DNA of 37,142 nucleotides from an uncultured Pelagibacteraceae bacterium. GTDB lineage: Bacteria; Pseudomonadota; Alphaproteobacteria; Pelagibacterales; Pelagibacteraceae. The first letter of the stretch is position 1. Each line of letters opens with the position of its first letter. The stretch is from positions 1-37,142 of the forward strand of contig CACKVV010000006.1 in assembly GCA_902603665.1 (NCBI GenBank), read 5' to 3'. Below, in pieces: positions 18,385-37,142 of this stretch. Position numbers and translations under genes: made by a program. Below the pieces are notes generated by a model. The model ran no database searches. It was given only the letters and a program-made list of their open reading frames with translations, and was not told where the DNA came from.

Positions 18385-18903
18385 ATGGCTAGAGTTACAG
18401 TAGAAGATTGTATAGATAAAGTAGAAAGTCCATATGAGTTAGTGCTAGTAGCAAAAGAGAGAGCTACTCAACTAAATTCTGGGATAGAACCTACTTTAGA
18501 AAGAGACAATGACAAGAATACAGTTATCGCCTTAAGAGAGATTGCCGAAGAAACAATCAAAGTTCCAGATCTAACTGAAGCTGCAGTGTATAAATTAAGA
18601 AAACATGTAGAACAAGTTGATGATACAGGAGAAGAAGATGAAGATATTGGTGATGATTTTGAAAATTTATATAAAGGTGAAATATCTAAAAGTGGTGTTC
18701 CAATATTGCCTTCTAAAAGAGCTAGAAAAATTCCAGAAAAAATTCAAGTATCTAAAGATGATTTAGAAGAATTACAAAATTCAAATGAAACACCAATGGC
18801 TGATCCTATAGATACAAATGAGGAAAGTGGTGATGCTTCTTTAGAAGAAATGCAAGAAGAAGAAACTCTAGCAAACGAACAAGACCCAAATAATCAAGAA
18901 TAA
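18385..18903 (+). CDS. rpoZ: DNA-directed RNA polymerase subunit omega
   Basis: 172 aa. The N-terminal about 70 residues are the omega fold: [30 protein letters not shown] and the conserved [18 protein letters not shown]. Omega helps assemble RNA polymerase by binding the beta' subunit. E. coli omega is 91 aa. This one carries about 100 extra residues, strongly acidic ([21 protein letters not shown] and an E/N/D-rich end) with a short basic stretch ([14 protein letters not shown]) between. Alphaproteobacterial omegas often have C-terminal extensions, but this one is long. It stands alone, followed by a terminator hairpin. Confidence 0.93.
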
Positions 18904-20073: not shown

Positions 20074-20097
20074 AAAATGCGGTCTATTGACCATTTT
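20074..20097 (-). terminator. Weak terminator-like hairpin after the GcvT-like gene
   Basis: On the minus strand AAAAT-GGTC-AATA-GACC, a 2-base bulge and ATTTT fold into a hairpin directly at the stop codon, ending in a T run. Stability is modest. It could partly separate the GcvT-like gene from the binding-protein gene. Confidence 0.35.
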
Positions 20098-21271
20098 ATG
20101 GTTTATTTGGGATTGTACGGTCTATTCCTTTAACAATTTTTTTTTCATGATCAAAAAATGGTAATTTAACAACATTACAGTCATGGATTGTGCCATTAGG
20201 TAATTCTAACTTTAACTTTTTTCCAGGCCATTCTTTCGGTTCATAAAATCTCACATATCCAATTCCAAGTTTTAATGTAGGTGAGGGTACACCCGCAGTT
20301 ATATGTCCAACAACATTATCACCTTCTATAACTTTACTTCCAGAAGTTGGTGTATCAGTTTCACAAGTAACACCAAACAAACATGTTCCTTTATTTTTTT
20401 TTGATAACGCTTCCCTTCCAATAAAATCACCTTTATCCATATTTACAAAAAATTCTAAACCAGCCTCAAAGGGTGTCATAGTTGTATCAATATCAGTTAA
20501 ATTCCCAAATATTCCTCCTTCAATTCTTCTTATAGTCATTGCACGAGAGGATGATAATTCCATCCCAAAAGGCTTTCCACATTCCATAAGGTGATCCCAA
20601 AGAGCTAAGTGATCTGTCTTATCCCCATCAGAATAAATTTCAAAACCAAGCTCGTTTGTGAAACCAGTTCTTGAAACGTATAAATCCTGTCCACCAAGTT
20701 TAAAAAAACCTGATCTAAAATATGGCATGCTTTCATCTATATTTCCTTTTGATGCAGCTTTCATAATATCAATTGAAGCAGGACCTTGAATTTGTAGAAC
20801 CCTTGACTTCGGATCTGATATTTTGACATCAAAATTTTCACTATGGGCTAATAACCAATCTTCAAACGGACCGTCAGCTTGTACATACCAAAATTTATTA
20901 TCATTAAATTTAAAAATTACTCCATCCATAAAAATCCCACCTTGAGGAGTGCACGCTAACGAATAATAACCTCTACCTTCTTTTATTGATGAAATTTTTC
21001 TTGTTAATATTTTTTCTAAAAAGGGAATTGCATCCTTACCTGAAATTTCCACTGGCTTTTCTGGAACATCAAAAATTAATGCTTTCTGTCTTAGTAGCCA
21101 ATATTTTTCGATTGGATCTTCACCTATTGATATTGGAAAATATCGTCCAGCATAAACGCCACGGACCATTTTAGGACTATTGGTTCTTTCAATGTAAGGA
21201 GACTCTTCAAATCTTCTTGCACTAATTTTAATGGTTTTGTTAAGATCAGATTCTTCTTGTAGATTTCCCAA
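20096..21271 (-). CDS. GcvT/DmdA-family tetrahydrofolate-dependent aminomethyltransferase-like protein
   Basis: 391 aa. GcvT fold throughout: FDVPEKPVEISGKDAIPFLEKILTRKIS, GRGYYSLACTPQGGIFMDGVIFKF, LQIQGPASIDIM, SRTGFTNELGFEIYSD, TPFEAGLEFFVNMDKGDFIGREAL, and the C-terminal barrel GHITAGVPSPTLKLGIGYV. Canonical T-protein has paired Asp at GG..DD; here only one Asp remains (GGIFMDG), as I recall for the DMSP demethylase DmdA branch. The opening ARRFEESPYIERTN is also DmdA-like. A folate-dependent demethylase for a betaine or sulfonium compound brought in by the flanking transporter is a fair inference, but it is not the glycine-cleavage gene by context (no gcvH/gcvP nearby). It follows the molybdoenzyme gene by 10 bases. 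Confidence 0.8.
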   Translation of the reverse strand: MGNLQEESDLNKTIKISARRFEESPYIERTNSPKMVRGVYAGRYFPISIGEDPIEKYWLLRQKALIFDVPEKPVEISGKDAIPFLEKILTRKISSIKEGRGYYSLACTPQGGIFMDGVIFKFNDNKFWYVQADGPFEDWLLAHSENFDVKISDPKSRVLQIQGPASIDIMKAASKGNIDESMPYFRSGFFKLGGQDLYVSRTGFTNELGFEIYSDGDKTDHLALWDHLMECGKPFGMELSSSRAMTIRRIEGGIFGNLTDIDTTMTPFEAGLEFFVNMDKGDFIGREALSKKNKGTCLFGVTCETDTPTSGSKVIEGDNVVGHITAGVPSPTLKLGIGYVRFYEPKEWPGKKLKLELPNGTIHDCNVVKLPFFDHEKKIVKGIDRTIPNKP

Positions 21272-21281
21272 TTTAATCTCT

Positions 21282-23612
21282 CTAATTTGTTTTTGCGTTA
21301 GACCTTAAAATTGTTGGTGGATCAAATGCAGTTAATTTTGGAAGCGTATCATTATATTTTTCGATCTCAATAAGACAAGAATGTGCAATTGGACCTTGTC
21401 CAAGTTTAGATGTGCCTTTGTCAGGTGTTAATACATTTGGATTACCATGTTTACACATACTTCCATCTTGAGTAGGATTTTCTGGATCATACCAAGCACC
21501 AGTACTCATTTGTACTACTCCCTGCATTACATCATCTGTGATTTTTATACCTGCCAAACAAGATCCTCTATCATTAAACATTTTAACTACATCTCCATTT
21601 TTTAAATTACGTTTTTTTGCATCTATAGGATTAATTTCAAGCGGCTCTCTCTCATTTATTTTAAATGACTTACTATACTTTCCATGATCCATTTGGCTGT
21701 GTAGTTTATTTTTCGGTTGATTTGATATTAAGTGAAGCGGATATTTTTTATTTACTTTGCCCAACCATTCACAAGGCTCGAACCATACTGGGTGTCCTGG
21801 ACAATCATCATAATTAAAGTCAGCCACTGTTTTCGAGAAAATTTCTATTTTACCACTTGGTGTATTAAGTGGATTTTTTTGAGGATCTTCTCTAAAATCT
21901 TTCAACATTATTGTTGGTTCTGTTGGATCGCTAATTTTAAACCATTTTTGCTCTCTGAACTTTTCATATTTAGGTATCTCAATATTTGCAGCCGCTGCTC
22001 TATCAAATGTTTGTTTATAAATCCATTCTTGCCACTCATCTTGACTTTTTCCCTCAGTAAATTTTTCCTCAATACCCATTTTTTTTGCAATATTTGCAAA
22101 AATTTCAAAATCATTTTTAGATTGTCCGTAAGGTTCTATTATTTTATCCATAGATACTACAAATGGATCCCTGGGCGTCATCATTATGTCTGTTCTTTCA
22201 AGAGGAGTAGTGCAAGGCAAAACGATATCAGATCTTTTTGCAAGCGTATTCCAGCACCATTCATTTGAAATTATTGTATCTGGTTTTTCCCAAGCTTTTA
22301 TTAGTCTATTTAAGTCCTGGTGATGGTGAAAAGGATTTCCACCAGCCCAATAAACTATTTTAGTATCTGGATAGACATATGAATTTCCATTAAAGTCAAA
22401 TTTTTTTCCTGGGTTCAGTAAAAGATCACTAATTCGTGCAACTGGTATAAAATTCTCTATTTTATTTTCAGTTTGTGGAAATGCTGCTCCAGGTAAAACT
22501 TTAAATTGACCACCTATAAAATTGGTAGCACTATAACCAAAACCAAACCCACCTCCTGGTAATCCAATTTGACCAATCATAGAAGCAAGCATAATTGCCA
22601 TCCAAAACGGTTGTTCACCATGATCTTGTCTTGTTAAGGACCAACTAATAGATATCATACTTCTTTTTTTTACAATTTTTATCGCTAGTTCTTTAATTTT
22701 AGATGCTGAAATTTCACAAATATTTGAAGCCCATTCAGCATTCTTTACTACGCCATCATTTTTTCCCAAAAGGTAAGGTAAAAATTTATCAAAGCCCTCC
22801 GTATATTTATTTAAGAAATTAGTATCACTATGTCCTTCAGAATAAATTGTATGAGCCATCCCTAACATTAAGGCAGTGTCTGTGTTAGGTCTTGCTGCAA
22901 TCCATTCACCACTAACCTCATTAATTAAATCTGATTTAAGTGGACTAACATTTATAAACTCTATTCCTGAATTTGCAGATTCAATTAAATTTTCCTTTTG
23001 ATAATGATGACCCGTCCCACCTTGAGAAATTTGACCATTTTTAATTGGTATTCCACCAAAACAGAGAAAAACTTCAGTATTTTTTTTTATAGACTCCCAA
23101 CTAGTGCATGTATCAAGATAAGCACGATAACTCCCAAGAATATGAGGGACCATCGCCTCTGCAGCAGCAAAACTGTATGTAAATTTTGATCTAGTATATC
23201 CACCAACACAATTTAAAAATCTGTGTAATTGGCTTTGGGCATGATGAAATCTTCCTGCACTGGCCCATCCATATGAACCGCCAAATATAGAGGAGTTCCC
23301 ATGTTTATCTTTTACTCTATTAATTTCGTTTGCTACAAGTTCCTCTGCTTTATCCCAACTGACTGCAATAAATGGTTCAACGCCTCTTAAATTATTGTTT
23401 GCCCCCGGACCTCTTTCAAGCCAACTTTTTCTAACCATTGGCTTATCGATACGTGTTGGTCCGTCTAGAACATCAACAATTCCTTGTGCAATAGGTGATG
23501 GGTCTTTATCATGTTCCCATCCAACAAGTTCCTCAACCTTACCATTTTTAACTTTAGCTCTATAAGTACCCCAATGGTTACTTGTTAAAGGCAGACCTTT
23601 ATTTTTGGTCAT
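21282..23612 (-). CDS. Molybdopterin oxidoreductase, DMSO/biotin sulfoxide reductase type (cytoplasmic)
   Basis: 776 aa, bis-MGD enzyme of the DMSO reductase family, TorA/DorA/BisC branch. It has no N-terminal CxxC..C iron-sulphur cluster. GGSYGWASAGRFHHAQSQLHRFLN is diagnostic, with Tyr114 and Trp116, and TYSFAAAEAMVPHILG gives the presumed Mo ligand Ser147. These positions coincide with Tyr114/Trp116/Ser147 of Rhodobacter DMSO reductase. Tyr114 is a feature of DMSO and biotin-sulfoxide reductases and is lacking in TorA. No Tat (RR) signal precedes it, so it should be cytoplasmic like BisC. It reduces an S-oxide or N-oxide; the physiological substrate is unknown. It abuts the permease gene (stop/start adjacent) and is 10 bases from the GcvT-like gene. 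Confidence 0.88.
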   Translation of the reverse strand: MTKNKGLPLTSNHWGTYRAKVKNGKVEELVGWEHDKDPSPIAQGIVDVLDGPTRIDKPMVRKSWLERGPGANNNLRGVEPFIAVSWDKAEELVANEINRVKDKHGNSSIFGGSYGWASAGRFHHAQSQLHRFLNCVGGYTRSKFTYSFAAAEAMVPHILGSYRAYLDTCTSWESIKKNTEVFLCFGGIPIKNGQISQGGTGHHYQKENLIESANSGIEFINVSPLKSDLINEVSGEWIAARPNTDTALMLGMAHTIYSEGHSDTNFLNKYTEGFDKFLPYLLGKNDGVVKNAEWASNICEISASKIKELAIKIVKKRSMISISWSLTRQDHGEQPFWMAIMLASMIGQIGLPGGGFGFGYSATNFIGGQFKVLPGAAFPQTENKIENFIPVARISDLLLNPGKKFDFNGNSYVYPDTKIVYWAGGNPFHHHQDLNRLIKAWEKPDTIISNEWCWNTLAKRSDIVLPCTTPLERTDIMMTPRDPFVVSMDKIIEPYGQSKNDFEIFANIAKKMGIEEKFTEGKSQDEWQEWIYKQTFDRAAAANIEIPKYEKFREQKWFKISDPTEPTIMLKDFREDPQKNPLNTPSGKIEIFSKTVADFNYDDCPGHPVWFEPCEWLGKVNKKYPLHLISNQPKNKLHSQMDHGKYSKSFKINEREPLEINPIDAKKRNLKNGDVVKMFNDRGSCLAGIKITDDVMQGVVQMSTGAWYDPENPTQDGSMCKHGNPNVLTPDKGTSKLGQGPIAHSCLIEIEKYNDTLPKLTAFDPPTILRSNAKTN

Positions 23613-25736
23613 TTATTTTTTGGCTAAACCTAATGCTATTCTTTGTTTCTTTGTCCAAGCAAGGCTTATTCTATCGATTATAATTGCTAAAAGGACTATC
23701 CCAACACCTGCTGCCAATCCTCTTCCAGTATCAGATCTAGCTAATCCATTAAAAACCTCTAGACCTAGTCCTTTTCCACCTATAAGTGGAGTAACAATTT
23801 GCATTGCAAACGCCATAATTACAGTTTGATTAAAACCTATTACTAAACTTGGTATAGCTAAAGGAAATTTTACCTTATTAAGAGTTTGCAAAAGTGATCC
23901 ACCAAAAGATCTAGAAACTTCTGAATAGGTACCAGATACTTGAGTTAATCCTAGCGCGGTTAATCTTATTATAGGAGGTATAGAATATATTACTGTAGCC
24001 AGAACTGCAGAAACTATTCCACCTCCAAAAAACATTAAAACTGGAATTAAATAACAAAAATATGGAAGAGTTTGCATAGCATCTAGTACAACATCTTGAA
24101 TATTTTTAAATCTTTCGCTGTAAGAGGCTATTATACCAAGAGGCACTCCTATTATAAAACATAACAATACTGAGACTAAAACCGAGGATAACGTAATCAT
24201 TGATTGGGGCCATATTCCACAAGCTCCAATAAACAATAAAAGTATTATTGTAATAATTGCAAATCTTAATCCAACTGTAAAATATCCGATACTTGCAAAA
24301 ACTGCTAATGTATACCACCAAGGCGTATGAGTTAAAAAAATATCTAAAGGCCTTAACAAATTTAGATAAACAAATCCTCTTAATCCTTTAGAAAATGCAA
24401 TAAAGCCTGGATCAACTGTCAAAGACTCTACAGCATTAGAAATCGGTTGTCTTATTGATAACTTCCACTCTTTAGGAAAAGTTCCTATTTCATATAAATT
24501 CGAGTCTATGAATGAAATAATAAATAAAGCTATCAATGATGGAATCAAATAAAATCTTCCACTTATAAATTCGCCGATATCATTTGCAGTATTTTTATTG
24601 AAAATAGAAATTAAAATACTTGTGAAAGATGCAATAAAATTTGTAATTTTAATACATATAAAGTCTAAAATTTTGCTCGTAATATCTAAAGGCATTTCCA
24701 AAATTCTTGCAATTTTATATTTTTCTAAATTTTGAGGAAGTAAATGAAATTTTTTTACATTTGATGGAAGTTTATCTTCTTTATTACTACAAGCTTTACT
24801 AAATCTATCAAACATTATTGCCATAAATAAAATACAAAGACCACCTTCCATTGCCCATCCGACATCAAGTCTTCTTATTGCTTGCCATACTTGTCCACCA
24901 ATCCCTTCTGCACCAATAAAACATGCTAATACAACAAGAGCTAACGCCATCATAATAACTTGATTGATGCCCATCATAATACTTGGCAGTGACATAGGAA
25001 TTTTAATTTTTAATAATAATTGCAATTTACTTGAACCAAACGAAGTTGCAGACTCTACAGTTTCTTTTGAAACTTGTCGAATACCAGTGTTGGTTAATCG
25101 AATTATTGGTGGCATTGAATAAATCATTGTAGCCAATATTGCAGGTGCCCCCCCAATACCGAAAAAAAATAATGCAGGAAATAAATAAACAAAAGCGGGC
25201 ATAACCTGCATTGTGTCCAAAACAGGTTTCATAAAATTTTCAAATCTATCACTCTGAGAGCACGCTATTCCAAGTAATACTCCAAAAAATACACATAAGA
25301 AAACTGATAATCCCATCAAAGCAAGTGTTTGTAGAGATGCTTCCCACATTCCAACAGCTCCCCAAAAATAAATTACAAAGCATGAAAACAAGCCTAATCT
25401 TAGCCCACCAGCTATAAAACAAGGAAGAGTTAAAATTGCGGCGACTAAAACCCAAGGTGACTCAAGCAAAAAATCTTCTAAAAAATAATAACCAGCTTTA
25501 ATGTAATTTGCTAAAATTTTTGTAATCCATCTGTAATTTTTCTTTAGATAATCTTCTCCTTCATTTACCCATGCTGTAAAAGTAAATTCATCAGTTACAA
25601 CTTTAGGAAATTTTGATGGTCCGTCATTTTGACTTGAAAGAAATAAGGCTCCAATAAAAACTAATAATACCAATGAATATTTTATAATACTTTTTGTATT
25701 ATTTTTATTTTCTATTGTTTTTTGGACTACATCCAT
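23613..25736 (-). CDS. Tandem-duplicated glycine betaine/TMAO-type ABC permease
   Basis: 707 aa, about twice the usual ProW length. Two complete permease halves are visible, about residues 90-315 and 440-700. Each contains a DTMQ/DAMQ (M/T)P...YL(F/I)P motif, YS(M/I)PPIIRLT, an EAA-type loop (SATSFGSSKLQLLLKIKIP; SRSFGGSLLQTLNKVKFP), and FIGAEGIGGQVW or LIGGKGLGLEVF. The internal duplication lets one chain form the whole channel, as in TmoW-like transporters of TMAO/betaines. An N-terminal anchor helix (about 18-35) precedes a periplasmic segment. It starts 77 bases from the divergent ATPase gene and heads the minus-strand run that includes the molybdoenzyme. Confidence 0.88.
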   Translation of the reverse strand: MDVVQKTIENKNNTKSIIKYSLVLLVFIGALFLSSQNDGPSKFPKVVTDEFTFTAWVNEGEDYLKKNYRWITKILANYIKAGYYFLEDFLLESPWVLVAAILTLPCFIAGGLRLGLFSCFVIYFWGAVGMWEASLQTLALMGLSVFLCVFFGVLLGIACSQSDRFENFMKPVLDTMQVMPAFVYLFPALFFFGIGGAPAILATMIYSMPPIIRLTNTGIRQVSKETVESATSFGSSKLQLLLKIKIPMSLPSIMMGINQVIMMALALVVLACFIGAEGIGGQVWQAIRRLDVGWAMEGGLCILFMAIMFDRFSKACSNKEDKLPSNVKKFHLLPQNLEKYKIARILEMPLDITSKILDFICIKITNFIASFTSILISIFNKNTANDIGEFISGRFYLIPSLIALFIISFIDSNLYEIGTFPKEWKLSIRQPISNAVESLTVDPGFIAFSKGLRGFVYLNLLRPLDIFLTHTPWWYTLAVFASIGYFTVGLRFAIITIILLLFIGACGIWPQSMITLSSVLVSVLLCFIIGVPLGIIASYSERFKNIQDVVLDAMQTLPYFCYLIPVLMFFGGGIVSAVLATVIYSIPPIIRLTALGLTQVSGTYSEVSRSFGGSLLQTLNKVKFPLAIPSLVIGFNQTVIMAFAMQIVTPLIGGKGLGLEVFNGLARSDTGRGLAAGVGIVLLAIIIDRISLAWTKKQRIALGLAKK

Positions 25737-25813: not shown

Positions 25814-26860
25814 ATGAGTGGTTCTTCAAAAATAACTTGTTCAAATATTTGGAAACTTTTTGGGCCTGATGAAAAAAGAGTAATGAAGGAACTAGATCCG
25901 AAATTATCAATTAAAGAAGTACAAGAGAAAACTGGACATGTAGTTGCCGTTAAAGATGTAAGTTTTTCAATTCAAAAAGGTGAAACTTTTGTTGTAATGG
26001 GTTTGTCAGGAAGCGGAAAATCAACATTAGTAAGATGCATTTCAAGACTAATAGAACCAACTTCAGGAACAGTCAAAATGGATGACGTAGATGTAACAAA
26101 GATGAGTAATAGAGAGCTACTAGATTTGAGAAGAAATAAAATGAGTATGGTTTTTCAACATTTTGGACTTTTTCCACATAGGACAGTTGTAGAAAATATT
26201 GGTTACGGTCTAGAAGTAAGGGGAAGCAAAAAAATTGAGAGAATTGAAAAATCAATGGAAGTTTTAAAAATGGTGGGTTTAGATGGATGGCAAAATAATT
26301 ATCCTCGAGAATTATCAGGCGGAATGCAACAACGGGTCGGTTTAGCAAGAGCATTGGCTGTAGATCCTGAAATTTTAATATTTGACGAGCCTTTCTCTGC
26401 ACTTGACCCACTCATAAGAAGAGAAATGCAAGACGAACTATTAAGTATTCAAGAAAAAGTAAAAAAAACTATGGTGTTTATTACTCACGACTTTTTAGAG
26501 GCAATCAAAATGGCAGATCATATTGCAATAATGAAAGATGGAGAAGTATCACAAATAGGAACACCCGAGGAAATTGTTGCAAATCCTAAGGATCAATATG
26601 TAAAAGATTTTTGTGAGGATGTACCAAAGTATAAAGTTTTAAGTGCAGGAAAAGTAATGAGAAAAGATTGTTGTGATGATACTAAAAAACTTTATTCATC
26701 TAAATCAGATTGCATTCCTGACAATTCCAAAATTGAAACTTTAATAGAAAAACTTGTTGATACAGACAAAAAATTTCCCGTTATTTGTTCAGAAACTGGA
26801 GACTTGCTAGGTGAAATTGACCGTTCTATTGTGTTGAAATCAATGAGATCTGCTAGTTAA
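25814..26860 (+). CDS. Glycine betaine/TMAO-type ABC transporter ATP-binding protein
   Basis: 348 aa, ProV/OpuAA-type ATPase. It has the N-terminal extension before the nucleotide domain (FGPDEKRVMKELDPKLS), then Walker A GLSGSGKST (63-71), Q loop VFQHFGLFPHRTV, signature LSGGMQQRVGLARAL, Walker B ILIFDEPFSALDP and the switch ITHDF. A C-terminal CBS-like tail (SKIETLIEKLVDTDKKFPVICSETGDLLGEIDR) may sense ionic strength, as in OpuA. It energises the permease encoded divergently at 23613-25736 and the binding protein at 18959. Its end overlaps the convergent DMT gene by 8 bases. The divergent placement of ATPase and permease is uncommon for proVWX operons. Confidence 0.92.
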   Translation: MSGSSKITCSNIWKLFGPDEKRVMKELDPKLSIKEVQEKTGHVVAVKDVSFSIQKGETFVVMGLSGSGKSTLVRCISRLIEPTSGTVKMDDVDVTKMSNRELLDLRRNKMSMVFQHFGLFPHRTVVENIGYGLEVRGSKKIERIEKSMEVLKMVGLDGWQNNYPRELSGGMQQRVGLARALAVDPEILIFDEPFSALDPLIRREMQDELLSIQEKVKKTMVFITHDFLEAIKMADHIAIMKDGEVSQIGTPEEIVANPKDQYVKDFCEDVPKYKVLSAGKVMRKDCCDDTKKLYSSKSDCIPDNSKIETLIEKLVDTDKKFPVICSETGDLLGEIDRSIVLKSMRSAS

Positions 26861-27785
26861 TTTGTTTATTACCTTTTATACTTTTCTCATTAACTTTATC
26901 TCTCCAAATAATTATCATACCAGCTAATATTATTAAAATAACGCCAGGAAAAAGTTGAGCCCAAGGTGCCTCATTAAAAAATATCCACCCCAATACAAAT
27001 GATGATGGTATTCCTAAATATTCAAATGATGCCATTTTACTTGCGGAGATTAATCTATAAGAATAAATAAATAAAATAGCAGCTGTACCACCAAGAATAC
27101 CAGTTAGTGTCATTAAAAAAAAGTCTTGAACATTTTTGATTTCAACATGGCCGCTGGTTACAAAAAATAATACTATTCCACCCAGTACATTAAAAATTAA
27201 TGAGTATAATTGTATTTTTGCAGTTGAATGACCTTCGGGAATAAATTTTAGTATTATAACACTAATCGCCCATGCAAATGCAGTCATAATTGGAAATATT
27301 GAATAAAAACTAAATATCTCACTGGTTGGTTTCATAATTAGAACAACACCAAAGAAACCTAAAAAAATTGCAGACCATCTATATTTACCAACTTTATCTT
27401 TTAAAAAAAATATAGATAAAATTACAATGAAAAATGGTGATGAAAATGTCAAAGTCATTGCTGTTGCAAACTCTAAATTTATTACAGAAATAAATACAAA
27501 TATATTCATTGATAAAAATGCCAAACCTCTAAAAAAACTTAAAATTAAAAATTTTTTGTCAATTTTTCGAAAAATTGAAAAATATTCTTTCGTGAATATT
27601 ATTAGAAGAATTAAAGGAATAATTCCCGCTGCATTTCTAAAAACAGCTAGTTGAATAACAGAATATTCATCACCAAGAAATTTTATCACAACCATGTATA
27701 AATCTATACAAAGTATAGCCATGAGCATCGTAGTCACAGCAAGATAGGTTTTCTTCACATCTACTTTTTCAGATGATAATTTCAT
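26853..27785 (-). CDS. DMT superfamily transporter (EamA)
   Basis: 310 aa with about ten membrane segments in two EamA repeats. The first repeat includes IQLAVFRNAAGIIPLILLIIF and EFATAMTLTFSSPFFIVILSIFFLKDKVG. The second includes GGTAAILFIYSYRLISASKMASFEYLGIPSSFVLGWIFFNEAPW. The pattern (A)xFxYxxIPxxxxxGxxxFxExP is typical of metabolite exporters of the RhaT/EamA group. The substrate is unknown. It is divergent from the Fe-alcohol dehydrogenase gene (42-base gap) and overlaps the ATPase gene end. Confidence 0.85.
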   Translation of the reverse strand: MKLSSEKVDVKKTYLAVTTMLMAILCIDLYMVVIKFLGDEYSVIQLAVFRNAAGIIPLILLIIFTKEYFSIFRKIDKKFLILSFFRGLAFLSMNIFVFISVINLEFATAMTLTFSSPFFIVILSIFFLKDKVGKYRWSAIFLGFFGVVLIMKPTSEIFSFYSIFPIMTAFAWAISVIILKFIPEGHSTAKIQLYSLIFNVLGGIVLFFVTSGHVEIKNVQDFFLMTLTGILGGTAAILFIYSYRLISASKMASFEYLGIPSSFVLGWIFFNEAPWAQLFPGVILIILAGMIIIWRDKVNEKSIKGNKQIN

Positions 27786-27827: not shown

Positions 27828-29018
27828 ATGAGTAACTTTAAACTAAATGAATCTGATATCTTATCAAATCAAGATTGGACTTTCCCAACCAATATTGCAT
27901 ACGGACCCGGACGTTTAAAAGAAATTGGAACAATTTGTAATAACTTAAATATAAAAAATCCCTTGATAGTAACTGACAAGGGAAGTCCAAAGTTGCCATT
28001 TATTTCGAATTTACAAAGTTATTTGTCTAATTCTAATGTAAAATCAGGTTTATTTTTCGATATATCCCCTAATCCAAGAGAGGATGAAGTTTCAGTTGGT
28101 TGCAAAAAATTTAAAGATGGAAATCATGATGCAATTATAGCTATAGGTGGTGGAAGTGCTATGGATGGAGGTAAATTAATTTGTTTAACAGCAAATAATG
28201 ATGTTCCACTAAGAGATTTTGAGTTTGAATTAACTCCTCCAATAATAAGTAAAGATAACCCATTTCCAAAAATTATAACTATTCCTACTACAGCAGGAAC
28301 AGGAGCAGAAACAGAAATTACAGCTATGGTAACTTATTTAAAAGAGGGAATGAAATTTTGCATGTGGCACCCAGATGTTAGACCTTCATTAGCATTAATT
28401 GATCCAGAATTAACAATAGGACTACCCGCTAATCTAACAGCATGGACAGGTGTAGATGCATTAATTCATGGAATTGAAGGATACTGCGTTCCAGGATTTA
28501 ATCCTATGTGTGATGGAGCAGCATTAGAAGGTCTATCATTGATATCCAAATCACTTGTAACTGCCGTAGAACAACCAGATAGTATTTTAGCAAGAGGTGG
28601 AATGCATGTTGGATCTTGTTTAGCAGGAATATCATTTCTAAAAGGATTAGGTAATGTACATTCTATATCTCACGTGGTTGGTGCTGAGTACAATACGCAT
28701 CATGGTTTAACTAATGCAATAGTTTTACCCGTAGTTTTACGTTTCAATTTACCTGGTATGGAGGAAAAAGTTCAAAGAATGTCTGAAGCAATGCAATATA
28801 AAGATCATTCAGTTGATGCATTCATTAAAAATATGGAAGATTTGTTAGATAGAGTAAAAATCCCTAAAAGCTTAAGTGAATTAAATGTTCCTGAGGACAG
28901 TGCAGCAAGAATTGCAGAGAAAGCAATGAAAGATCAAGCGTATGGCCAAAACCCTAAGAAAGTCTCTTTTGAAGAAATGAAAGAAATGGTTTTACAAAGT
29001 ATAAAAAAAGCTCGTTAA
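27828..29018 (+). CDS. Iron-containing alcohol dehydrogenase
   Basis: 396 aa, group III (Fe-dependent) alcohol dehydrogenase. The NAD-binding region is AIIAIGGGSAMDGGK (about 103-116), followed by IPTTAGTGAE. The metal ligands are Asp210, His214 (DALIHGIE), His278 and His292 (VHSISHVVG...THHG), with the same 4- and 14-residue spacing as FucO. It oxidises an alcohol or reduces an aldehyde; the substrate is unknown. It is first in a four-gene plus-strand operon with amidase (6-base gap), DMT transporter (1-base overlap) and a homocysteine-methyltransferase-like gene (3-base gap). An aldehyde dehydrogenase in the facing operon could take the next step. Confidence 0.92.
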   Translation: MSNFKLNESDILSNQDWTFPTNIAYGPGRLKEIGTICNNLNIKNPLIVTDKGSPKLPFISNLQSYLSNSNVKSGLFFDISPNPREDEVSVGCKKFKDGNHDAIIAIGGGSAMDGGKLICLTANNDVPLRDFEFELTPPIISKDNPFPKIITIPTTAGTGAETEITAMVTYLKEGMKFCMWHPDVRPSLALIDPELTIGLPANLTAWTGVDALIHGIEGYCVPGFNPMCDGAALEGLSLISKSLVTAVEQPDSILARGGMHVGSCLAGISFLKGLGNVHSISHVVGAEYNTHHGLTNAIVLPVVLRFNLPGMEEKVQRMSEAMQYKDHSVDAFIKNMEDLLDRVKIPKSLSELNVPEDSAARIAEKAMKDQAYGQNPKKVSFEEMKEMVLQSIKKAR

Positions 29019-29024
29019 GCTTTA

Positions 29025-30440
29025 ATGCTTGATAATCTTTCAGTTGAAGAAATTCAAAAAAATATAAATAACCGACAAATCTCAATTAAAGAAGTCTTAG
29101 TTTACTACTTAGAAAGAATAGAAAAATTTAATAAAAATATTAATGCTATAGTTTTACAAAAAGATAGAGAATTATTAATTAAGGAAGCAGAACAGAAAGA
29201 TAATTTAAAAAATAGCAAAAAAATTTTAAATGGTTTGCCTATAGCAGTAAAAGATCTTTCTGATGTTGTTGGTTTAAAAACTACATATGGTTATGAAGGA
29301 TCAAAAAATAATAGCCCAAAAAAAAATTCACTATTTGTAGATAAACTAATAGATAATGGAGCAATCATAATTGGTAAGACAAATACTGCAGAATTAGGTG
29401 TTGGTGGACATACGACTAACCGTCTTTTTGGACCTACATCTAATGTTTATAACTTTGAAAAGTCTGCAGCAGGATCGAGTGGTGGAGCAAGTTCAGCGGT
29501 TGCAGCTGGATTACTTCCATTTGCAGATGGCACTGATCAAATGGGATCTTGTAGAGGTCCAGCAGCATATGCAAATATTTATGGATATAGACCAACTCCT
29601 GGTTTGATTGCTGCTGAACGAACATATCAAAATTTTGATATACCTATTTTAACCACACCGGGATGTTTTGCAAAAACACCAAATGATATGGCATTTTTAA
29701 TTGACGCTATTACTGGAAGTCATCCATTAGATAATATTTCATTTGATTTAAATAGTTCATTTAGAGACGCAAAGTTTTCAGAAAAAGAATTTTCTAATTT
29801 AAAGATTGGTTGGCTATCTGATATGAATAATAAATATATTATTGAAAAATCTATTTTAGATATATGTGAAAAAAAATTAAAAGATTTAGAAAAAAATAAT
29901 CTTGAGATTGAATATTTAAAGCCAAACTTAGATACTGATACTTTATGGAACAGCTGGACTACCTTTAGATCTAAAAGTATTTATCAAGATACATTAAGTA
30001 TGGGCATTAAAGATATTAATTCTATGACATTTCAAGTCATTTGGGAATATAATAAAGGTAAAGAAATTCAATCTGATAATTTAAAATTAGCTTTTGAACA
30101 AAAAAATAGATGTACTGAGCAAGTTAATGAAATTTTTGATAAATTTGATTTTTTAGCTTTACCTTCTGCTCAATTGTTTCCTTTTGATAAAAGTATTCAA
30201 TTTCCAAGTAAAATTAACGAGACCAGTCTCGATACGTATCATAGATGGCTAGAAGTTTTTATTATATCAAGCCTCTTGGAGCTACCAACTATAACTATTC
30301 CTGTTGGTTTTAATGAAAATGGTTTACCAATGGGAATGCAGATTATTGGTAAAAATAAAGATGACTTAAAACTATTTGCGTTTGCTAAAACTTTTGAGGA
30401 AATTTACAATAATTCAAATCACAAACCAAAATTAAACTAA
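29025..30440 (+). CDS. Amidase signature family hydrolase
   Basis: 471 aa. The Ser-Ser-Lys triad can be placed as Lys76 (AVKDLSD), Ser151 (AAGSSGGASSAVAAG) and nucleophile Ser175 (TDQMGSCRGPAA). The 75- and 24-residue spacings equal those of FAAH Lys142/Ser217/Ser241. It hydrolyses an amide or carbamate in the cytoplasm; the substrate is unknown. The nucleophile loop DQMGSCRGPA differs from the common D.GGSIR.PA, with Gln-Met before and Cys after the Ser, which may affect specificity. GatA is excluded because no gatB/gatC lie nearby and the family signature deviates. It is second gene of the Fe-ADH operon and overlaps the DMT gene start by one base (TAATG). Confidence 0.88.
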   Translation: MLDNLSVEEIQKNINNRQISIKEVLVYYLERIEKFNKNINAIVLQKDRELLIKEAEQKDNLKNSKKILNGLPIAVKDLSDVVGLKTTYGYEGSKNNSPKKNSLFVDKLIDNGAIIIGKTNTAELGVGGHTTNRLFGPTSNVYNFEKSAAGSSGGASSAVAAGLLPFADGTDQMGSCRGPAAYANIYGYRPTPGLIAAERTYQNFDIPILTTPGCFAKTPNDMAFLIDAITGSHPLDNISFDLNSSFRDAKFSEKEFSNLKIGWLSDMNNKYIIEKSILDICEKKLKDLEKNNLEIEYLKPNLDTDTLWNSWTTFRSKSIYQDTLSMGIKDINSMTFQVIWEYNKGKEIQSDNLKLAFEQKNRCTEQVNEIFDKFDFLALPSAQLFPFDKSIQFPSKINETSLDTYHRWLEVFIISSLLELPTITIPVGFNENGLPMGMQIIGKNKDDLKLFAFAKTFEEIYNNSNHKPKLN

Positions 30441-31333: not shown

Positions 31334-32326
31334 ATGCTTTTCAAAGAAAAGCTAAAATCAAAAAATAAAATATTTTTAGATGGAGGAAACGGTTCTGAAA
31401 TAGCAAAACTTGGAGGCGACATGAGCCCTGCATTTTCTGCGTTAGCAACTTTAACATCACCAGATATCGTAATTAAAGTTCATGAAAATTTTATTGATGC
31501 TGGCTGTGATATTATTACTGCTAATACTTTTGCAACAAATAAACATAATTTGGAAAGTTTAAACAAAGGTGATCAAGTACATAAATTTATCTCAGACTCA
31601 GTTAAGCTTTCTAGAAAAGCGATATCAAATACTGGAAAAGAAAATAAAATTGCAGTAGCGGGTAGCCTATCAAACTTTTTTCCTCTAAAGGAAAATGAGT
31701 TTGTTCCAAATCCAGAATTTGTACCAACCTTTAAAAAAGAGGAAGAAAATTACAAAGAAGCTGCAAAAATTTTAAAAGAATCTGGAGCAGATTTATTGGT
31801 TCTAGAAATGCTTTTGGATGTAGACCACTCTAAAATTTTATTGAATGCAGCTCTCGAGACTGGTTTACCAGTATGGGTTGGATTGAGTTGTTGCGATAGT
31901 AAATTTGATAATACTGTTATTGGAAGAAATTTTAGAGCAGAGAAAGAAAAATCACTGATTTACGATGAGAATAAGTATAAAGACCAACCTAAATACTTAC
32001 CTGAAGATAAAATAATTTTACTAGAGGATATAATAAAATCACTTACGAGTTTAGGAGGTGATGTTTATGGAATAATGCACACTTGGTTTCAAGATAGCAT
32101 TGGTGGTTTAAAAATATTGAAGAATAATTGGAAAGGACCAATCATGTTTTATCCTGAAATACATAAATTTGACACTAATACACATAAAGCAATAATAACT
32201 ATGACAGAGGAAGAATTTTCAAACTCAATTTTAGAATTAATAGATGATCAAATTCAAATTGTTGGAGGCTGTTGTGGAGTTAACGACAAGCATTTAAAAA
32301 GACTTATACAATCTATATCTGAGTAA
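31334..32326 (+). CDS. Homocysteine S-methyltransferase family protein (His-variant zinc site)
   Basis: 330 aa, the MmuM/BHMT barrel. The opening IFLDGGNGSEIA matches the family's LDG.x.(T/S)E. VHENFIDAGCDIITANTFATN and LVLEML follow, and the C-terminal zinc motif GGCCG is at Cys313-Cys314. The third zinc ligand is normally the Cys of GINC/GVNC. At that place this protein reads YGIMHTW, so His249 replaces it. Normal members move a methyl group from S-methylmethionine, betaine or similar donors to homocysteine; here the substrate is uncertain. It is the last gene of the Fe-ADH/amidase/DMT operon. A paralogue with the same change is at 34485-35402. Confidence 0.85.
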   Translation: MLFKEKLKSKNKIFLDGGNGSEIAKLGGDMSPAFSALATLTSPDIVIKVHENFIDAGCDIITANTFATNKHNLESLNKGDQVHKFISDSVKLSRKAISNTGKENKIAVAGSLSNFFPLKENEFVPNPEFVPTFKKEEENYKEAAKILKESGADLLVLEMLLDVDHSKILLNAALETGLPVWVGLSCCDSKFDNTVIGRNFRAEKEKSLIYDENKYKDQPKYLPEDKIILLEDIIKSLTSLGGDVYGIMHTWFQDSIGGLKILKNNWKGPIMFYPEIHKFDTNTHKAIITMTEEEFSNSILELIDDQIQIVGGCCGVNDKHLKRLIQSISE

Positions 32327-32443
32327 ATTAATTAATATTCAAAAAGTTTTAAAATTTAAAATTAAATTTTTTTATTGAAGTCAATTTAGTTACTATGATA
32401 GTTTTAAATATTAATAAATAAGATTATATCATTATATATTTAA

Positions 32444-33304
32444 ATGAGTTCAAATAAACTTAGAGTACGAAGAAGCTTTATATTTACACCGGGTTTAAAA
32501 CCAGAGATGTTTCCAAAAGCAATCGAGTCCGGGGCTGACATGGTTTGTATAGAATTAGAGGATGGTATAGCGCTTAAGGATAAGAATGATGCAAGAAATA
32601 ATACACTTAACGCTTTAAAAACGCTCAAGATTAAAGAAGATGTAGAATTAGTTGTAAGAGTTAATTGTCAAAGAACAAAACATGGATTGTTAGATTTAGA
32701 GGCCTTTGCCTCAAGTAAGATAAATATTGGTGCAATAATGCTTCCCAAAGTAAAAACACCAGATGAAATAAAATTTATCGATGATCTGCTTACAGATTGT
32801 AATTTAGATACAGACCTTCATGTAATAATGGAAACGAACGAGGCTTTAGAATGTATTTATGACATTGCGCATGCAAGCAAAAGAACGGTGGCATTGTATT
32901 TTGGAGGTGTTGATATGGCAGCTGAACTTAGATGTGAGCATAAATGGGAAAATTTAGTATACGCAAGATCAAAACTAGTTCATGCAGGCGCAAGTATTGG
33001 GGTTGATGTAATAGATGTTCCATACTTAGATTTAGAAAATATGGATGGAATGAAAAAAGAGGCAGAGCTTGCAAAAAATCTTGGTTTTACAGGCAAAGGC
33101 TCTATCCATCCTAAACAGATAGGAATTTTAAATGAGGTTTTTACACCTTCAAAAGAAGAAATTAGTCATGCAAAAAGAATTGTAGATCAATTTAACGAAT
33201 CAAATACAGGCTTGGTTGTAATTGACGGCAAACTTATAGAAAAACCTGTTTTAAGAGAAATGCAAAGAAAAATATTAATTGCAGAAAAAATAAACAAAAA
33301 TTAA
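32444..33304 (+). CDS. HpcH/HpaI aldolase / CitE-like acyl-CoA lyase
   Basis: 286 aa, citrate-lyase-beta/malyl-CoA-lyase fold. Markers are RRSFIFTPGLKPEMFPKAIESGADMVCIELEDG, VVRVNCQRT, IMLPKVKTPDEI, VIMETNEAL, FGGVDMAAEL and the lid segment KGSIHPKQIGILNE. Mg2+ ligands are expected at the Glu of METNE and the Asp of GGVDM. It cleaves or forms a beta-hydroxyacyl-CoA such as malyl-, methylmalyl- or citramalyl-CoA. The first residues of substrate-binding Arg (RVN) are kept. It sits by itself between two facing operons, with a 117-base upstream gap that should hold its promoter. Confidence 0.88.
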   Translation: MSSNKLRVRRSFIFTPGLKPEMFPKAIESGADMVCIELEDGIALKDKNDARNNTLNALKTLKIKEDVELVVRVNCQRTKHGLLDLEAFASSKINIGAIMLPKVKTPDEIKFIDDLLTDCNLDTDLHVIMETNEALECIYDIAHASKRTVALYFGGVDMAAELRCEHKWENLVYARSKLVHAGASIGVDVIDVPYLDLENMDGMKKEAELAKNLGFTGKGSIHPKQIGILNEVFTPSKEEISHAKRIVDQFNESNTGLVVIDGKLIEKPVLREMQRKILIAEKINKN

Positions 33305-33307
33305 TAA

Positions 33308-34474
33308 TTAAAAATTATTATTAACTATTTCGTCCATCATATTAATCATATCTTTCTTATAATTTTCATCAGTTCCAGAATCTGTTTCAATTACAGAGAA
33401 ATAGCTTGCAACAACACCATTATTTAAATTTATTGCTAAAAATTGACCTCCAAGACCTGAATGGCCAATCCAATTACCACATTTCATTGTTGAATTTGAG
33501 TACTCTAAAAATTTATTTTTTGATAATTCCATATATTTAGTCCCTTTATTTTTTAATGTTTCATCTAAGAAAAATTCAGAACCGATTTTCCTATTTAATA
33601 CCCCATGCCCTTTTCTTGAAAAAAGAAGACCATATCTCAAAAAATCTCTAGAGATTAAACATCCGCCTCCCGAAATCCAAGGCATACTAAATCTATCTGT
33701 CCCCATATACATGGCATCTTCAAAACCTGCTGCTTCTACAGCCTCCAACAACCATTCTTTAAGTTTTTTTCCGCTTACTTTTTCAACTAATAAACCCATT
33801 ACATCTGTATTTGCTGATTTATAGTGAGATAAATCTGAAGTATTTTTTAAATCTTGATCTTTCAAAGATTTAATTGAATTTAAAAATTCTTCCTGGGTTA
33901 CTTTATAATTTAAATCATCGGGTAGTCTCCAACCACAAACTGGTTCATGTAAAAATGAAGAAGTATATGGATCTGTATAATCTTCGCTATAAGCATTTTG
34001 AATATTCATATCTAAAACATCTTGAATCGTTGCAGATGCATACCCAGAGCCAATATTAGGTAAATATTCTGAAACTTTTTTATTTAATTCAATAATTTTT
34101 TTTTCAACAAGTTCTCCAATAAATAAATTAATAAACATTTTTGTGATAGACATTATTGTTTGTGGGGTATTTTCGTTAAAATCATCTGCATATTTTTCAT
34201 ATAGAATGTCTTGATCTTTGCCTACCAACAATGAGCAAAAATATTTATGATTTATCATTTTATTTACTGATGGAATTTTTTCTATCTTGTCATTATATTT
34301 TTGGTTTAATTTTAATACATGATCAGATCTTAGAAGTAGACCATATCTGTTGATTTTATGTAAATTTCGGTAACCCTCTCTTCTTGTTTCCGGCAAATAC
34401 CATTTTGGTTTATTATCTCTTATAATTTTAAGCGTAGGATTTAATTCACTAATTATTTTTTTATCTTTTGTCAT
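33308..34474 (-). CDS. Serine hydrolase, beta-lactamase/EstB-like fold
   Basis: 388 aa. The nucleophile motif SxxK is at Ser109-Lys112 (IMSITKMFINLFIGE), as in class C beta-lactamase-like esterases. The general base Tyr is probably Tyr218 in SHYKSANTDVMGLLVEKVSG, and the third motif may be the GHSGLGGQ (about 337-344). No signal peptide is present, so it should be cytoplasmic and is more likely an esterase/amidase than a resistance enzyme. It is last gene of the minus-strand ALDH/VOC/methyltransferase-like operon (10-base gap) and ends 3 bases from the convergent CitE-like gene. Confidence 0.82.
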   Translation of the reverse strand: MTKDKKIISELNPTLKIIRDNKPKWYLPETRREGYRNLHKINRYGLLLRSDHVLKLNQKYNDKIEKIPSVNKMINHKYFCSLLVGKDQDILYEKYADDFNENTPQTIMSITKMFINLFIGELVEKKIIELNKKVSEYLPNIGSGYASATIQDVLDMNIQNAYSEDYTDPYTSSFLHEPVCGWRLPDDLNYKVTQEEFLNSIKSLKDQDLKNTSDLSHYKSANTDVMGLLVEKVSGKKLKEWLLEAVEAAGFEDAMYMGTDRFSMPWISGGGCLISRDFLRYGLLFSRKGHGVLNRKIGSEFFLDETLKNKGTKYMELSKNKFLEYSNSTMKCGNWIGHSGLGGQFLAINLNNGVVASYFSVIETDSGTDENYKKDMINMMDEIVNNNF

Positions 34475-34484
34475 TTCTTAAATT

Positions 34485-35402
34485 TTATTTTAAAACTGAG
34501 ATTGCACTTATTTTATCGGGACCAACACCACAACATCCACCTATAATCTGAGCTCCATTAGATATCCAATTTTTCGCTTCCTCTAAATATTTAGTCGGGG
34601 ATATATCATTAATTAATTTCCAATGAGGCTTTTCAAAGTAACCATTATTTGGATATGCACCTACAATTCCTTTGTGAACTTTTTTTAAAATTTTAACCGC
34701 TTCACCTGTAACTTTGATATCTGAATGTGCAACTAAAATTGGTCCTTCATGCATTTTACTAAATTTAGATAGGGAATTTTCTAAAGTATCGTAAAATTTT
34801 GCTTTTGAATTAGTTATACTCTCCTGATAGCCGTGCATTAATATATTTTCGTCTTCATTTATTGCACAAGAAATAGATAGCCAGATAGGTAATTTAACAT
34901 TTTTTGAGCACTCAATAATATTTTCAACCGTTCTATCCTTTGACGTCATGGCTTCTAAAATGATTAGGTCTACACCTGCTTCTTTTAAAATTTTTAAATG
35001 TTCATTAAAACCAGGTTTAATATCCTCTTCTGATAGTTTATCCCAACTGCCTGAAGTTGAAACTGATCCTGCAACAGCTATTTCTCTTTTAGAATGATTA
35101 GCAGCCTTTAAAGCTAATTTTACACTTTCTTCATTCCAAGCTTTCGTAAATTGATCATATCCGTACTCTTTCATTGATATCGGTGTAATAGCGTAGGTAT
35201 TTGAAGTAATGATATCTGCACCAGCATTAATATATTTTTCATGTACCTGAAGCATTTTATCCGGGTCATCTATTGCACATTTTCCAGCCCACAGATCTTT
35301 ATCCATCTTCGCGCCTGAACTTTCTAACTCTCCTCCATTTCCACCATCTAAAATAACTACACCATTAGCTTTTAATTTTTTCTCTACAAGATTGTATGAC
35401 AT
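34485..35402 (-). CDS. Homocysteine S-methyltransferase family protein (second His-variant)
   Basis: 305 aa. Family segments are VVILDGGNGGELE, VHEKYINAGADIITSNTYA, LIILEAMTS, LPIWLSISC and the zinc pair GGCCG (Cys290-Cys291). The position of the third zinc ligand (GINC in MmuM) reads ILVAHSDI, giving His226. Size and YPNNGYFE resemble MmuM more than BHMT. It shares the LDGGNG start and the His substitution with the 31334 gene but is clearly diverged from it, so this is not a recent duplication. It lies 3 bases downstream of the VOC gene in the operon led by the aldehyde dehydrogenase. Confidence 0.85.
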   Translation of the reverse strand: MSYNLVEKKLKANGVVILDGGNGGELESSGAKMDKDLWAGKCAIDDPDKMLQVHEKYINAGADIITSNTYAITPISMKEYGYDQFTKAWNEESVKLALKAANHSKREIAVAGSVSTSGSWDKLSEEDIKPGFNEHLKILKEAGVDLIILEAMTSKDRTVENIIECSKNVKLPIWLSISCAINEDENILMHGYQESITNSKAKFYDTLENSLSKFSKMHEGPILVAHSDIKVTGEAVKILKKVHKGIVGAYPNNGYFEKPHWKLINDISPTKYLEEAKNWISNGAQIIGGCCGVGPDKISAISVLK

Positions 35403-35405
35403 TTA

Positions 35406-35789
35406 TTATTGATTATTTGTAAAAGCGCAGATTTTATTTCCATCTAAGTCACGAATGTAAGAATAGTAAACTCCAGAGCCTTCGGGTCTCTCACCACCAG
35501 ATCCTTCGCTAGCACCTCCCAACTTAATTCCAACATCATGAAACTTATCAACCAATTCTCTTGAACTTGTTTGAAATGAAATTTGAGATCCATTACCAAC
35601 TGTTGCTTTTTCTTTGTTAAAAGGTTTTGTGACGTAAAATTCTATTTTTCCGTTGCTATTTTTTTGAGAATATCCAGCGCACACTTCATCTTTTTCAGTT
35701 CTTTCTAAATCTAAAACTTCTAACAATTCATCATAAAACTTAATGGACTGATCTAAATTGTTTGTGCCAACCATAACATAGCCAATCAT
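35406..35789 (-). CDS. VOC/glyoxalase superfamily protein
   Basis: 127 aa, one vicinal-oxygen-chelate domain made of two beta-alpha-beta-beta-beta repeats. IGYVMVGTNNLDQSIKFYDELLEVLDLE is the typical opening, IEFYVTKPFN the middle, and GVYYSYIRDLDGNKICAF the end, with the RDLDGN(K/H) turn common in glyoxalase/bleomycin-resistance members. The expected first metal His is not obvious (V-M-V-G-T), so metal binding and lyase activity are uncertain. It is 1 base after the aldehyde dehydrogenase stop and 3 bases before the next gene. Confidence 0.82.
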   Translation of the reverse strand: MIGYVMVGTNNLDQSIKFYDELLEVLDLERTEKDEVCAGYSQKNSNGKIEFYVTKPFNKEKATVGNGSQISFQTSSRELVDKFHDVGIKLGGASEGSGGERPEGSGVYYSYIRDLDGNKICAFTNNQ

Positions 35790-35790
35790 A

Positions 35791-37142
35791 TTATTTTGGC
35801 CAACCAGTTACAGCTTTTACTTCTAAAAATTCATGTAATCCCCAAACACCACCTTCACGTCCATTTCCAGATTGTCTATATCCTCCAAATGGAGCACCAG
35901 GGTCTGCACCGTTTCCATTTACATAAATTGTTCCAGCCTTAAGCTTCTTGGCAACTCTTTTTGCTTTTTCTTTATCCTCAGTTTGTAAATAATTACCTAA
36001 TCCGTACTCGGTTTCATTTACAATTTGAATAGCTTCTTCCTCTGTCTCAAAAGGTATTATAGATAAAACCGGACCAAATATTTCTTCTTTTGCAATACGC
36101 ATATCATTTGTTACATCGGTAAAAATAGTTGGTTTAATAAAATATCCTTTATTCATTCCGTTAGGTAATTCCGGTCCGCCTGCTGCAAGAGTTGCTCCTT
36201 CGTCAATTCCACTCTGAATAAGGCTTATTATTTTATTGTATTGAATTTTAGAGACAACAGGACCTATATGATCTCCTTTTTTTGAGGCATGGTCGACCTT
36301 TATCAAATTTGCTTCTTCGACAGCCTCTTTAACTGCTCTTTCATATATTGATTTTTCAACAAGCATTCTTGTCGGTGCATCACATGACTGACCTGAATTA
36401 CTCATTACGTTTCTGATACCATCTCGTACAGCGTTAGGGTAGGAGTCTGCAAAAACAATATTTCCACCTTTTCCACCTAATTCCAGGCAAACTCTTTTGA
36501 TTGTATCAGCTCCATTTTTTAAAATTAATTTACCTGCTCTTGTTGATCCTGTAAAAGATACTAAATCAATATCAGGATGAGATGAAATATCTGTACCAAC
36601 GCCAGCGCCATCACCATTTACAAGATTAAATACACCAGCTGGAAAACCTGCTTCATCAATCATTTCCGCAAACAACATTGCTGACATTGGAGCTATCTCT
36701 GATGGTTTATGAATCATTGTACAACCTGTTGCAAAGGCTGGAACAACTTTTAAAGCTATTTGATTTATTGGCCAGTTCCATGGAGTAATTAATCCGCAAA
36801 CTCCAATTGGTTCATAACAAATATGATTATTAGAGTTTGGTTCAAATTGCTCATCAAACTTAAATTCTTTGAGTCTTTTTATAAAATCTTCTAGATGAGA
36901 TTGTCCGCTTGATGTTTGAACGTCAGTTGCCCAATCCATTGGGGCACCCATTTCCATAGATATAGCATCAGCCATCTCTCCATATCTTTTTTTATAAATA
37001 GATAGTAATTTTTCTAATAAATTTAATCTTTCATCTTTTGAACTTTCGCTCCAGCTAACTAAAGCTTTTTTGGCTGCCGAGACGGCAGCATTAGTATCTT
37101 CTATTGATCCTAATGATATCGTTGCAAAAACTTCTTCGGTTG
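35791..37142 (-). CDS. NAD(P)-dependent aldehyde dehydrogenase (5' partial)
   Basis: The track ORF of 394 aa starts at an internal Met. The frame stays open to the window edge, and those codons read as ALDH N-terminus (TEEVFATISLGSIEDTNAAV...), so the gene continues beyond base 37142. Family features are ITPWNWPINQIALKVVPAFATG, the NAD-loop FTGSTRAGK, general base Glu165 (LELGGKGGN) and nucleophile Cys198 (NSGQSCDAPTRM), then EEIFGPVLSI and APFGGYRQSGNGREGG (track numbering). It oxidises an aldehyde to a carboxylate; the substrate is unknown. As first gene of the facing operon it could act on the aldehyde made by the Fe-alcohol dehydrogenase at 27828. Confidence 0.93.
   Translation of the reverse strand, partial: TEEVFATISLGSIEDTNAAVSAAKKALVSWSESSKDERLNLLEKLLSIYKKRYGEMADAISMEMGAPMDWATDVQTSSGQSHLEDFIKRLKEFKFDEQFEPNSNNHICYEPIGVCGLITPWNWPINQIALKVVPAFATGCTMIHKPSEIAPMSAMLFAEMIDEAGFPAGVFNLVNGDGAGVGTDISSHPDIDLVSFTGSTRAGKLILKNGADTIKRVCLELGGKGGNIVFADSYPNAVRDGIRNVMSNSGQSCDAPTRMLVEKSIYERAVKEAVEEANLIKVDHASKKGDHIGPVVSKIQYNKIISLIQSGIDEGATLAAGGPELPNGMNKGYFIKPTIFTDVTNDMRIAKEEIFGPVLSIIPFETEEEAIQIVNETEYGLGNYLQTEDKEKAKRVAKKLKAGTIYVNGNGADPGAPFGGYRQSGNGREGGVWGLHEFLEVKAVTGWPK

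Follow-up and report, generated by a model that had tools for sequence, protein, structure and literature searches.

A histidine-type subfamily of homocysteine methyltransferase homologues in a SAR11 gene island

Two proteins, P1 and P2, encoded in a 37,142-nucleotide stretch of SAR11 DNA (the window) were confirmed by sequence comparison as members of an uncharacterised homocysteine methyltransferase subfamily, in which His stands in for one of the three predicted zinc-binding cysteines. Both genes lie in a conserved island whose products seem to take up a methylated osmolyte and degrade it (Table 1). The window belongs to a genome of 740 kb and 58% completeness; among named genomes, those of SAR11 single cells are its closest relatives. 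With a probability of about 0.55, we suggest that P1 and P2 are zinc thiol methyltransferases with a His plus Cys-Cys site, which would pass a methyl group derived from an imported onium compound to a thiol, likeliest homocysteine.

Table 1. Features of the window, with coordinates, strand and basis or remark
Feature	Position	Strand	Basis or remark
OpuAC-type substrate-binding protein	18959..19972	-	closest solved relative TmoX 4xz6; Ser129 at TmoX Glu131
GcvT-like demethylase	20096..21271	-	closest solved: GcvT-like 3tfh, GcvT proteins, TMAO demethylase 9q5a
Molybdopterin S/N-oxide reductase	21282..23612	-	bisC family; closest solved relatives DMSO reductases
Betaine/choline-type ABC permease	23613..25736	-	TIGR03416 above cut-off
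ProV-type ABC ATPase	25814..26860	+	TIGR01186 above cut-off
EamA-type transporter	26853..27785	-	profile match
Iron-containing alcohol dehydrogenase	27828..29018	+	profile match
Amidase	29025..30440	+	profile match
EamA-type transporter, directly upstream of P1	30440..31330	+	profile match
P1	31334..32326	+	330 aa, PF02574 homocysteine S-methyltransferase family, His type
P1 Cys186-Cys187 codons (WVGLSCC), possible extra ligand	31889..31894	+	alignment column
P1 His249 codon (GIMH), first zinc-ligand column	32078..32080	+	MAFFT alignment, PDB-sequence profile search
P1 Cys313-Cys314 codons (GGCCG)	32270..32275	+	alignment
HpcH/CitE-type lyase	32444..33304	+	slot variable in other SAR11 genomes
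Beta-lactamase-fold hydrolase (probable esterase)	33308..34474	-	genus distribution same as P2
P2	34485..35402	-	305 aa, PF02574 homocysteine S-methyltransferase family, His type
P2 Cys290-Cys291 codons (GGCCG)	34530..34535	-	alignment
P2 His226 codon (LVAH), first zinc-ligand column	34725..34727	-	MAFFT alignment, PDB-sequence profile search
P2 Cys179 codon (WLSISC), possible extra ligand	34866..34868	-	alignment column
Glyoxalase-family protein	35406..35789	-	profile match
Aldehyde dehydrogenase	35791..37140	-	runs off window

Family and fold of P1 and P2

P1 and P2 are PF02574 members by both profile and fold. They scored 131 and 168 bits, respectively, against the PF02574 profile (cut-off 22), and Foldseek matched their AlphaFold models to the TIM-barrel of the MetH module, MmuM and BHMT (probability 1.00, TM approximately 0.64-0.81 by query length). 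Neither protein reached the MmuM equivalog NF007020 (81 and 124 bits, cut-off 215) or the BHMT equivalog NF005718 (74 and 73 bits, cut-off 338). The three-Cys zinc feature of the family (GxNC plus GGCC) is incomplete in both, the first Cys being His with GGCC present. Lacking this feature and falling below every equivalog cut-off, they were classed apart from MmuM and BHMT. Searches of Pfam, NCBIfam and PDB sequences returned no MetE/UROD-type match to either. The best fold match of P1 was the homocysteine module of MetH (Thermotoga maritima, 1q7m and 3bof), which differs in its (Cys)3Zn site (PMC539065) and in being part of a multidomain cobalamin enzyme. P1 and P2 are approximately 29% identical, consistent with the strong divergence noted in the preliminary description.

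The histidine at the zinc-ligand column

In the MAFFT alignment, P1 His249 and P2 His226 fell in the column of the GINC cysteine of Escherichia coli MmuM, and the GGCC motifs were aligned too. A search of PDB sequences with a His-type profile placed the H opposite the GINC cysteine of both MmuM (5dml) and T. maritima MetH (1q7m), with zero shift. It matched 12 solved sequences, all of them MmuM, MetH or BHMT, with Cys at this place wherever the alignment was shown. In the metal-free AlphaFold models, P1 His249 is on strand 244-251 and GGCC comes after strand 307-310, while P2 His226 is on strand 222-228 and GGCC comes after 284-287. These positions agree with the zinc site of MetH, in which the metal is bound by strands beta6 and beta8 (PMC539065). 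The alignment, the profile and the model strands thus concur with the initial reading that His replaces the first zinc Cys while GGCCG is kept; neither alignment places a Cys at this column in P1 or P2. The LDGGNG motif common to the two proteins is not group-specific, as orthologues read LDGGMG, LDGATG and others.

Distribution, conservation and selection

Every aligned SAR11 orthologue of P1 or P2 had the His, and so did the proteins of a third lineage, from another SAR11 family (GIMHC). The mmuM-like and bhmT-like paralogues of SAR11 retain Cys at the ligand column. P1 and P2 resemble BHMT and bacterial Bmt in fold, and probably also in using the methyl groups of onium compounds, but unlike the separate bhmT-like genes of SAR11 they are of the His type.

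The class scan covered 385 Alphaproteobacteria genomes, with the ligand residue read from the loci fetched, and His-type proteins were found in 18 of the 384 other genomes sampled. When 399 Pseudomonadota genomes were scanned, this genome aside, no intact His-type protein was found among the loci fetched from outside the Alphaproteobacteria. The loci fetched in that scan were Cys-type, save one with neither residue and one relative (L178:1486-2397, genome G203) that reads HE at the ligand column and IYAMTAGT instead of GGCC, and is apparently a member that no longer has a metal site. Intact His-type proteins scored at least 250 bits on the subfamily profile, Cys-type proteins below 170 and L178 186. 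Every protein with at least 250 bits has the His, and P1 and P2 combine such a score with the His and GGCC. The genome scans and profile scores show that a His-subfamily exists, the point that the preliminary description proposed to check by aligning many MmuM/BHMT homologues.

Within the subfamily alignments the His is invariant and the Cys pair of GGCC nearly so; the 155 His rows in the column comparison were selected by the His itself and say nothing on invariance. The dN/dS ratios of P1 and P2, against close and distant orthologues, ranged between 0.05 and 0.21. The suggestion that the change is old and conserved, rather than a random loss, is borne out by the presence of His throughout the orthologues, by the subfamily alignments and by this purifying selection. 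G012, the sole complete single-contig genome of the same genus in the sample, had Cys-type members only. Plasmid and phage collections yielded only distant relatives (<60% identity), and nothing relevant on a His variant of the PF02574 family was found in an open-access library.

One origin or two

With all columns included, the His proteins formed one side of a branch in the tree (support 98/91, 99% of bootstraps). When the six-residue motif was masked, the best tree needed two changes, 33% of the bootstraps kept one, and the AU test gave p 0.50. Since masking removed the support for a single origin, we do not claim one. The tree is compatible with a single origin, which with the motif masked is neither supported nor rejected, and the His of P1 and that of P2 may stem from one event or from two.

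Other residues separating His-type from Cys-type proteins

Additional alignment columns separated the two groups (MmuM numbering). Besides Cys229, replaced by His, there was a change from P/G to S at 123 and from Thr to Ser at 196, the loop that is mostly GP in Cys-type enzymes was S-x-S, and the Glu four residues after the Cys (233) was lost. P1 and P2 differ from E. coli MmuM (PDB 5dml/5dmm) at Cys229, in the GP loop and in the lost Glu, and share with it the fold, the LDG loop, the strand-end Glu and the GGCC pair. The strand-end Glu (MmuM 168, P1 E158, P2 E150), which did not vary among the His-type proteins, presumably holds the substrate amino group, as in BHMT and MetH. Together with the LDG and GGCCG loops it makes up the residues expected to hold homocysteine, all kept in P1 and P2. 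The earlier proposal that the His site might alter the methyl acceptor is weakened by this conservation. Because these residues are conserved and the GP loop is changed, the methyl donor is likelier to differ than the acceptor.

An acceptor other than homocysteine, either another thiol or a non-thiol to which the His tunes the site, is unlikely. The further group-separating columns (123, 196 and 233) would fit such an acceptor. So would the Rfam scan of the His-type loci, in which no riboswitch, including no SAM riboswitch, was detected; this result counts against our preferred reading. However, the presumed homocysteine-binding residues are conserved, and MetE, whose site is His-Cys-Glu-Cys, acts on homocysteine (PMC539065), so a change of ligand needs no new acceptor. 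SAM-V was found directly upstream of two of the Cys-type SAR11 mmuM loci scanned (L111:5435-5498 and L113:5208-5271), and since it was at these two only, the riboswitch contrast with the His-type loci is weak.

The column of P1 C186 and P2 C179 is next to MmuM position 196, at the end of the strand neighbouring the ligand strand. It holds Cys in 23 of the 40 His-type representatives and in none of the 35 Cys-type ones, and the Cys is invariant across the P1 and P2 orthologues used for the P2 model. This extra Cys, which the preliminary description does not mention, may replace a ligand or add one, and it is the main reason why we do not assert a His-Cys-Cys site. Both distributions would suit a relocated Cys3 site, with the third sulfur supplied from the neighbouring strand (P1 C186/C187, P2 C179) and the His acting as a base or hydrogen-bond partner instead of a ligand. 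Yet the other 17 His-type representatives lack the extra Cys (e.g. FSAR, FSSR) and nearly all of them retain His and GGCC. The His is invariant and the extra Cys is not, and we consider such a relocation unlikely as well. That P1 and P2 have a different TIM-barrel activity, metal-dependent or not, and are no longer methyltransferases is highly improbable: L178, with His and no GGCC, indicates that the family can drift off zinc, but strong selection maintains GGCCG, LDG and the Glu in both proteins, and one-carbon and demethylation genes are among their neighbours.

The gene island

The permease of the island passed the cut-off for choline permeases, and the ATPase that for betaine/proline/choline. 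The binding protein resembles TmoX, in which Glu114 of the SAR11 protein, equivalent to Glu131 of the DSS-3 protein, is essential (PMC8918994). In a pairwise alignment only, this Glu is matched by Ser129, and TMAO is thus disfavoured as the import substrate. As TmoX requires this Glu for TMAO, the substitution makes a compound resembling betaine, choline or a sulfonium the likelier import. No single known pathway fits the combination of amidase, probable esterase and reductase, and this counts against our preferred reading.

Gene order was largely constant in the P1-carrying SAR11 genomes. It starts with the molybdoenzyme, permease, ATPase, EamA, iron-containing alcohol dehydrogenase, amidase, EamA and P1, and continues with a variable slot, the esterase or not, sometimes MsrA, then P2, the glyoxalase and the aldehyde dehydrogenase. 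Across SAR11, the slot between P1 and the esterase held an HpcH/CitE-type lyase, an MR/MLE enolase-superfamily gene (L094:8991-10115) or nothing. In two close relatives (L066 and L068), P1 and the HpcH-type gene are kept and other genes replace the block from esterase through P2 to aldehyde dehydrogenase, showing that the end of the island is variable. Of 61 genomes of the genus, 14 have P2 and the same 14 have the esterase gene (p = 4e-14, a value that ignores shared ancestry and is no true probability). As these counts involve related genomes and one island, they show a unit and not independence. P1 was missing from some genomes that have P2 (G037, G017 and G009), which also counts against our preferred reading.

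The other SAR11 family has a distinct His-type lineage, which adjoins the same transporter, iron-containing alcohol dehydrogenase, amidase and esterase; near it are a GcvT-like gene and one for a DMGDH-like FAD/GcvT protein. The GcvT-like gene is loosely tied to P1 and P2, its close form occurring in few of the sampled relatives. In strain HTCC1062 opuA genes adjoin a GcvT-like gene without an assigned substrate (PMC3160333). Outside SAR11 the His-type neighbourhoods are mixed, with a one-carbon theme. Some of the genes are near FAD amine oxidases, GcvT and FTHFS/FolD/formate dehydrogenase/GMAS-type genes, and further neighbours include hydantoinases, a MetY-type gene and several kinds of importer. 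Genes in the GC-rich loci were called with a simple script, and only those checked against Pfam are cited.

Proposed function

In our preferred reading, the OpuA-type importer would bind a methylated cation in an aromatic box and take it up, and the dehydrogenases, hydrolases and reductase of the island would convert it. The methyl donor would be an onium compound, a quaternary ammonium or a sulfonium, either imported as such or made from the import by the dehydrogenases and the reductase. P1 and P2 would then pass the methyl group to a thiol, likeliest zinc-bound homocysteine, giving methionine, and the GcvT-like protein would move another methyl group to folate. The analysis establishes the family, the predicted fold, the register and conservation of the His, the selection, the synteny and the co-occurrence, while the zinc, its ligands, the donor, the acceptor and this order of steps are inferred. 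The metal, presumably zinc, would be held by the His on beta6 and the Cys-Cys on beta8, possibly aided by the Cys of the neighbouring strand.

Such a ligand set is chemically plausible in P1 and P2, since both MetE and MT2-A use a His-Cys-Cys zinc site for thiol activation (PMC539065). In those enzymes zinc is held by His and two Cys, with an added Glu in resting MetE, but the ligand positions in the barrel differ from those of MetH and there is no detectable sequence relation (PMC539065), so the analogy is one of chemistry only. For the donor, the Bmt of Phaeobacter inhibens transfers methyl groups from DMSP and betaine to homocysteine (PMC12366255). Only tentatively do we suggest that SAR11 has an undescribed route in which His-Cys-Cys methyltransferases, an OpuA-type importer and a sulfoxide/N-oxide reductase harvest methyl groups from a marine onium compound or its oxide, such as an alcohol resembling choline, or DMSOP after its reduction to DMSP.

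Human BHMT binds zinc through Cys217, Cys299 and Cys300, and when oxidised it forms a Cys217-Cys299 disulfide and releases the metal (PMC4101490). With His in the place of Cys217 no such disulfide could form, a possible advantage on oxidation, and the loss of the Cys might make His-type enzymes oxidation-resistant. The His-type proteins make up a coherent enzyme group, so far uncharacterised, that is encoded in a conserved catabolic island of single-cell genomes. As Cys-type and His-type paralogues share genomes, the influence of the ligand set on the reactivity and oxygen sensitivity of a zinc-thiolate methyltransferase can be studied in natural variants.

Additional observations

The molybdoenzyme of the island (21282-23612), of the DMSO/TMAO-reductase type, is encoded here by a SAR11 genome and in linkage with a betaine-type importer. 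A gene for a methionine sulfoxide reductase (PMSR) is located between the esterase and P2 in a related locus (L102:9435-9887) and has no counterpart in the window; an ORF of similar size fills this slot in L122, L124 and L125. One His-type protein (L146:1453-2394, genome G773) reads GGCF at the Cys pair, leaving a single Cys of the two. At positions 18385-18903 the window has a 172-aa ORF with an RNA polymerase Rpb6/omega domain, the ORF being longer than the domain.
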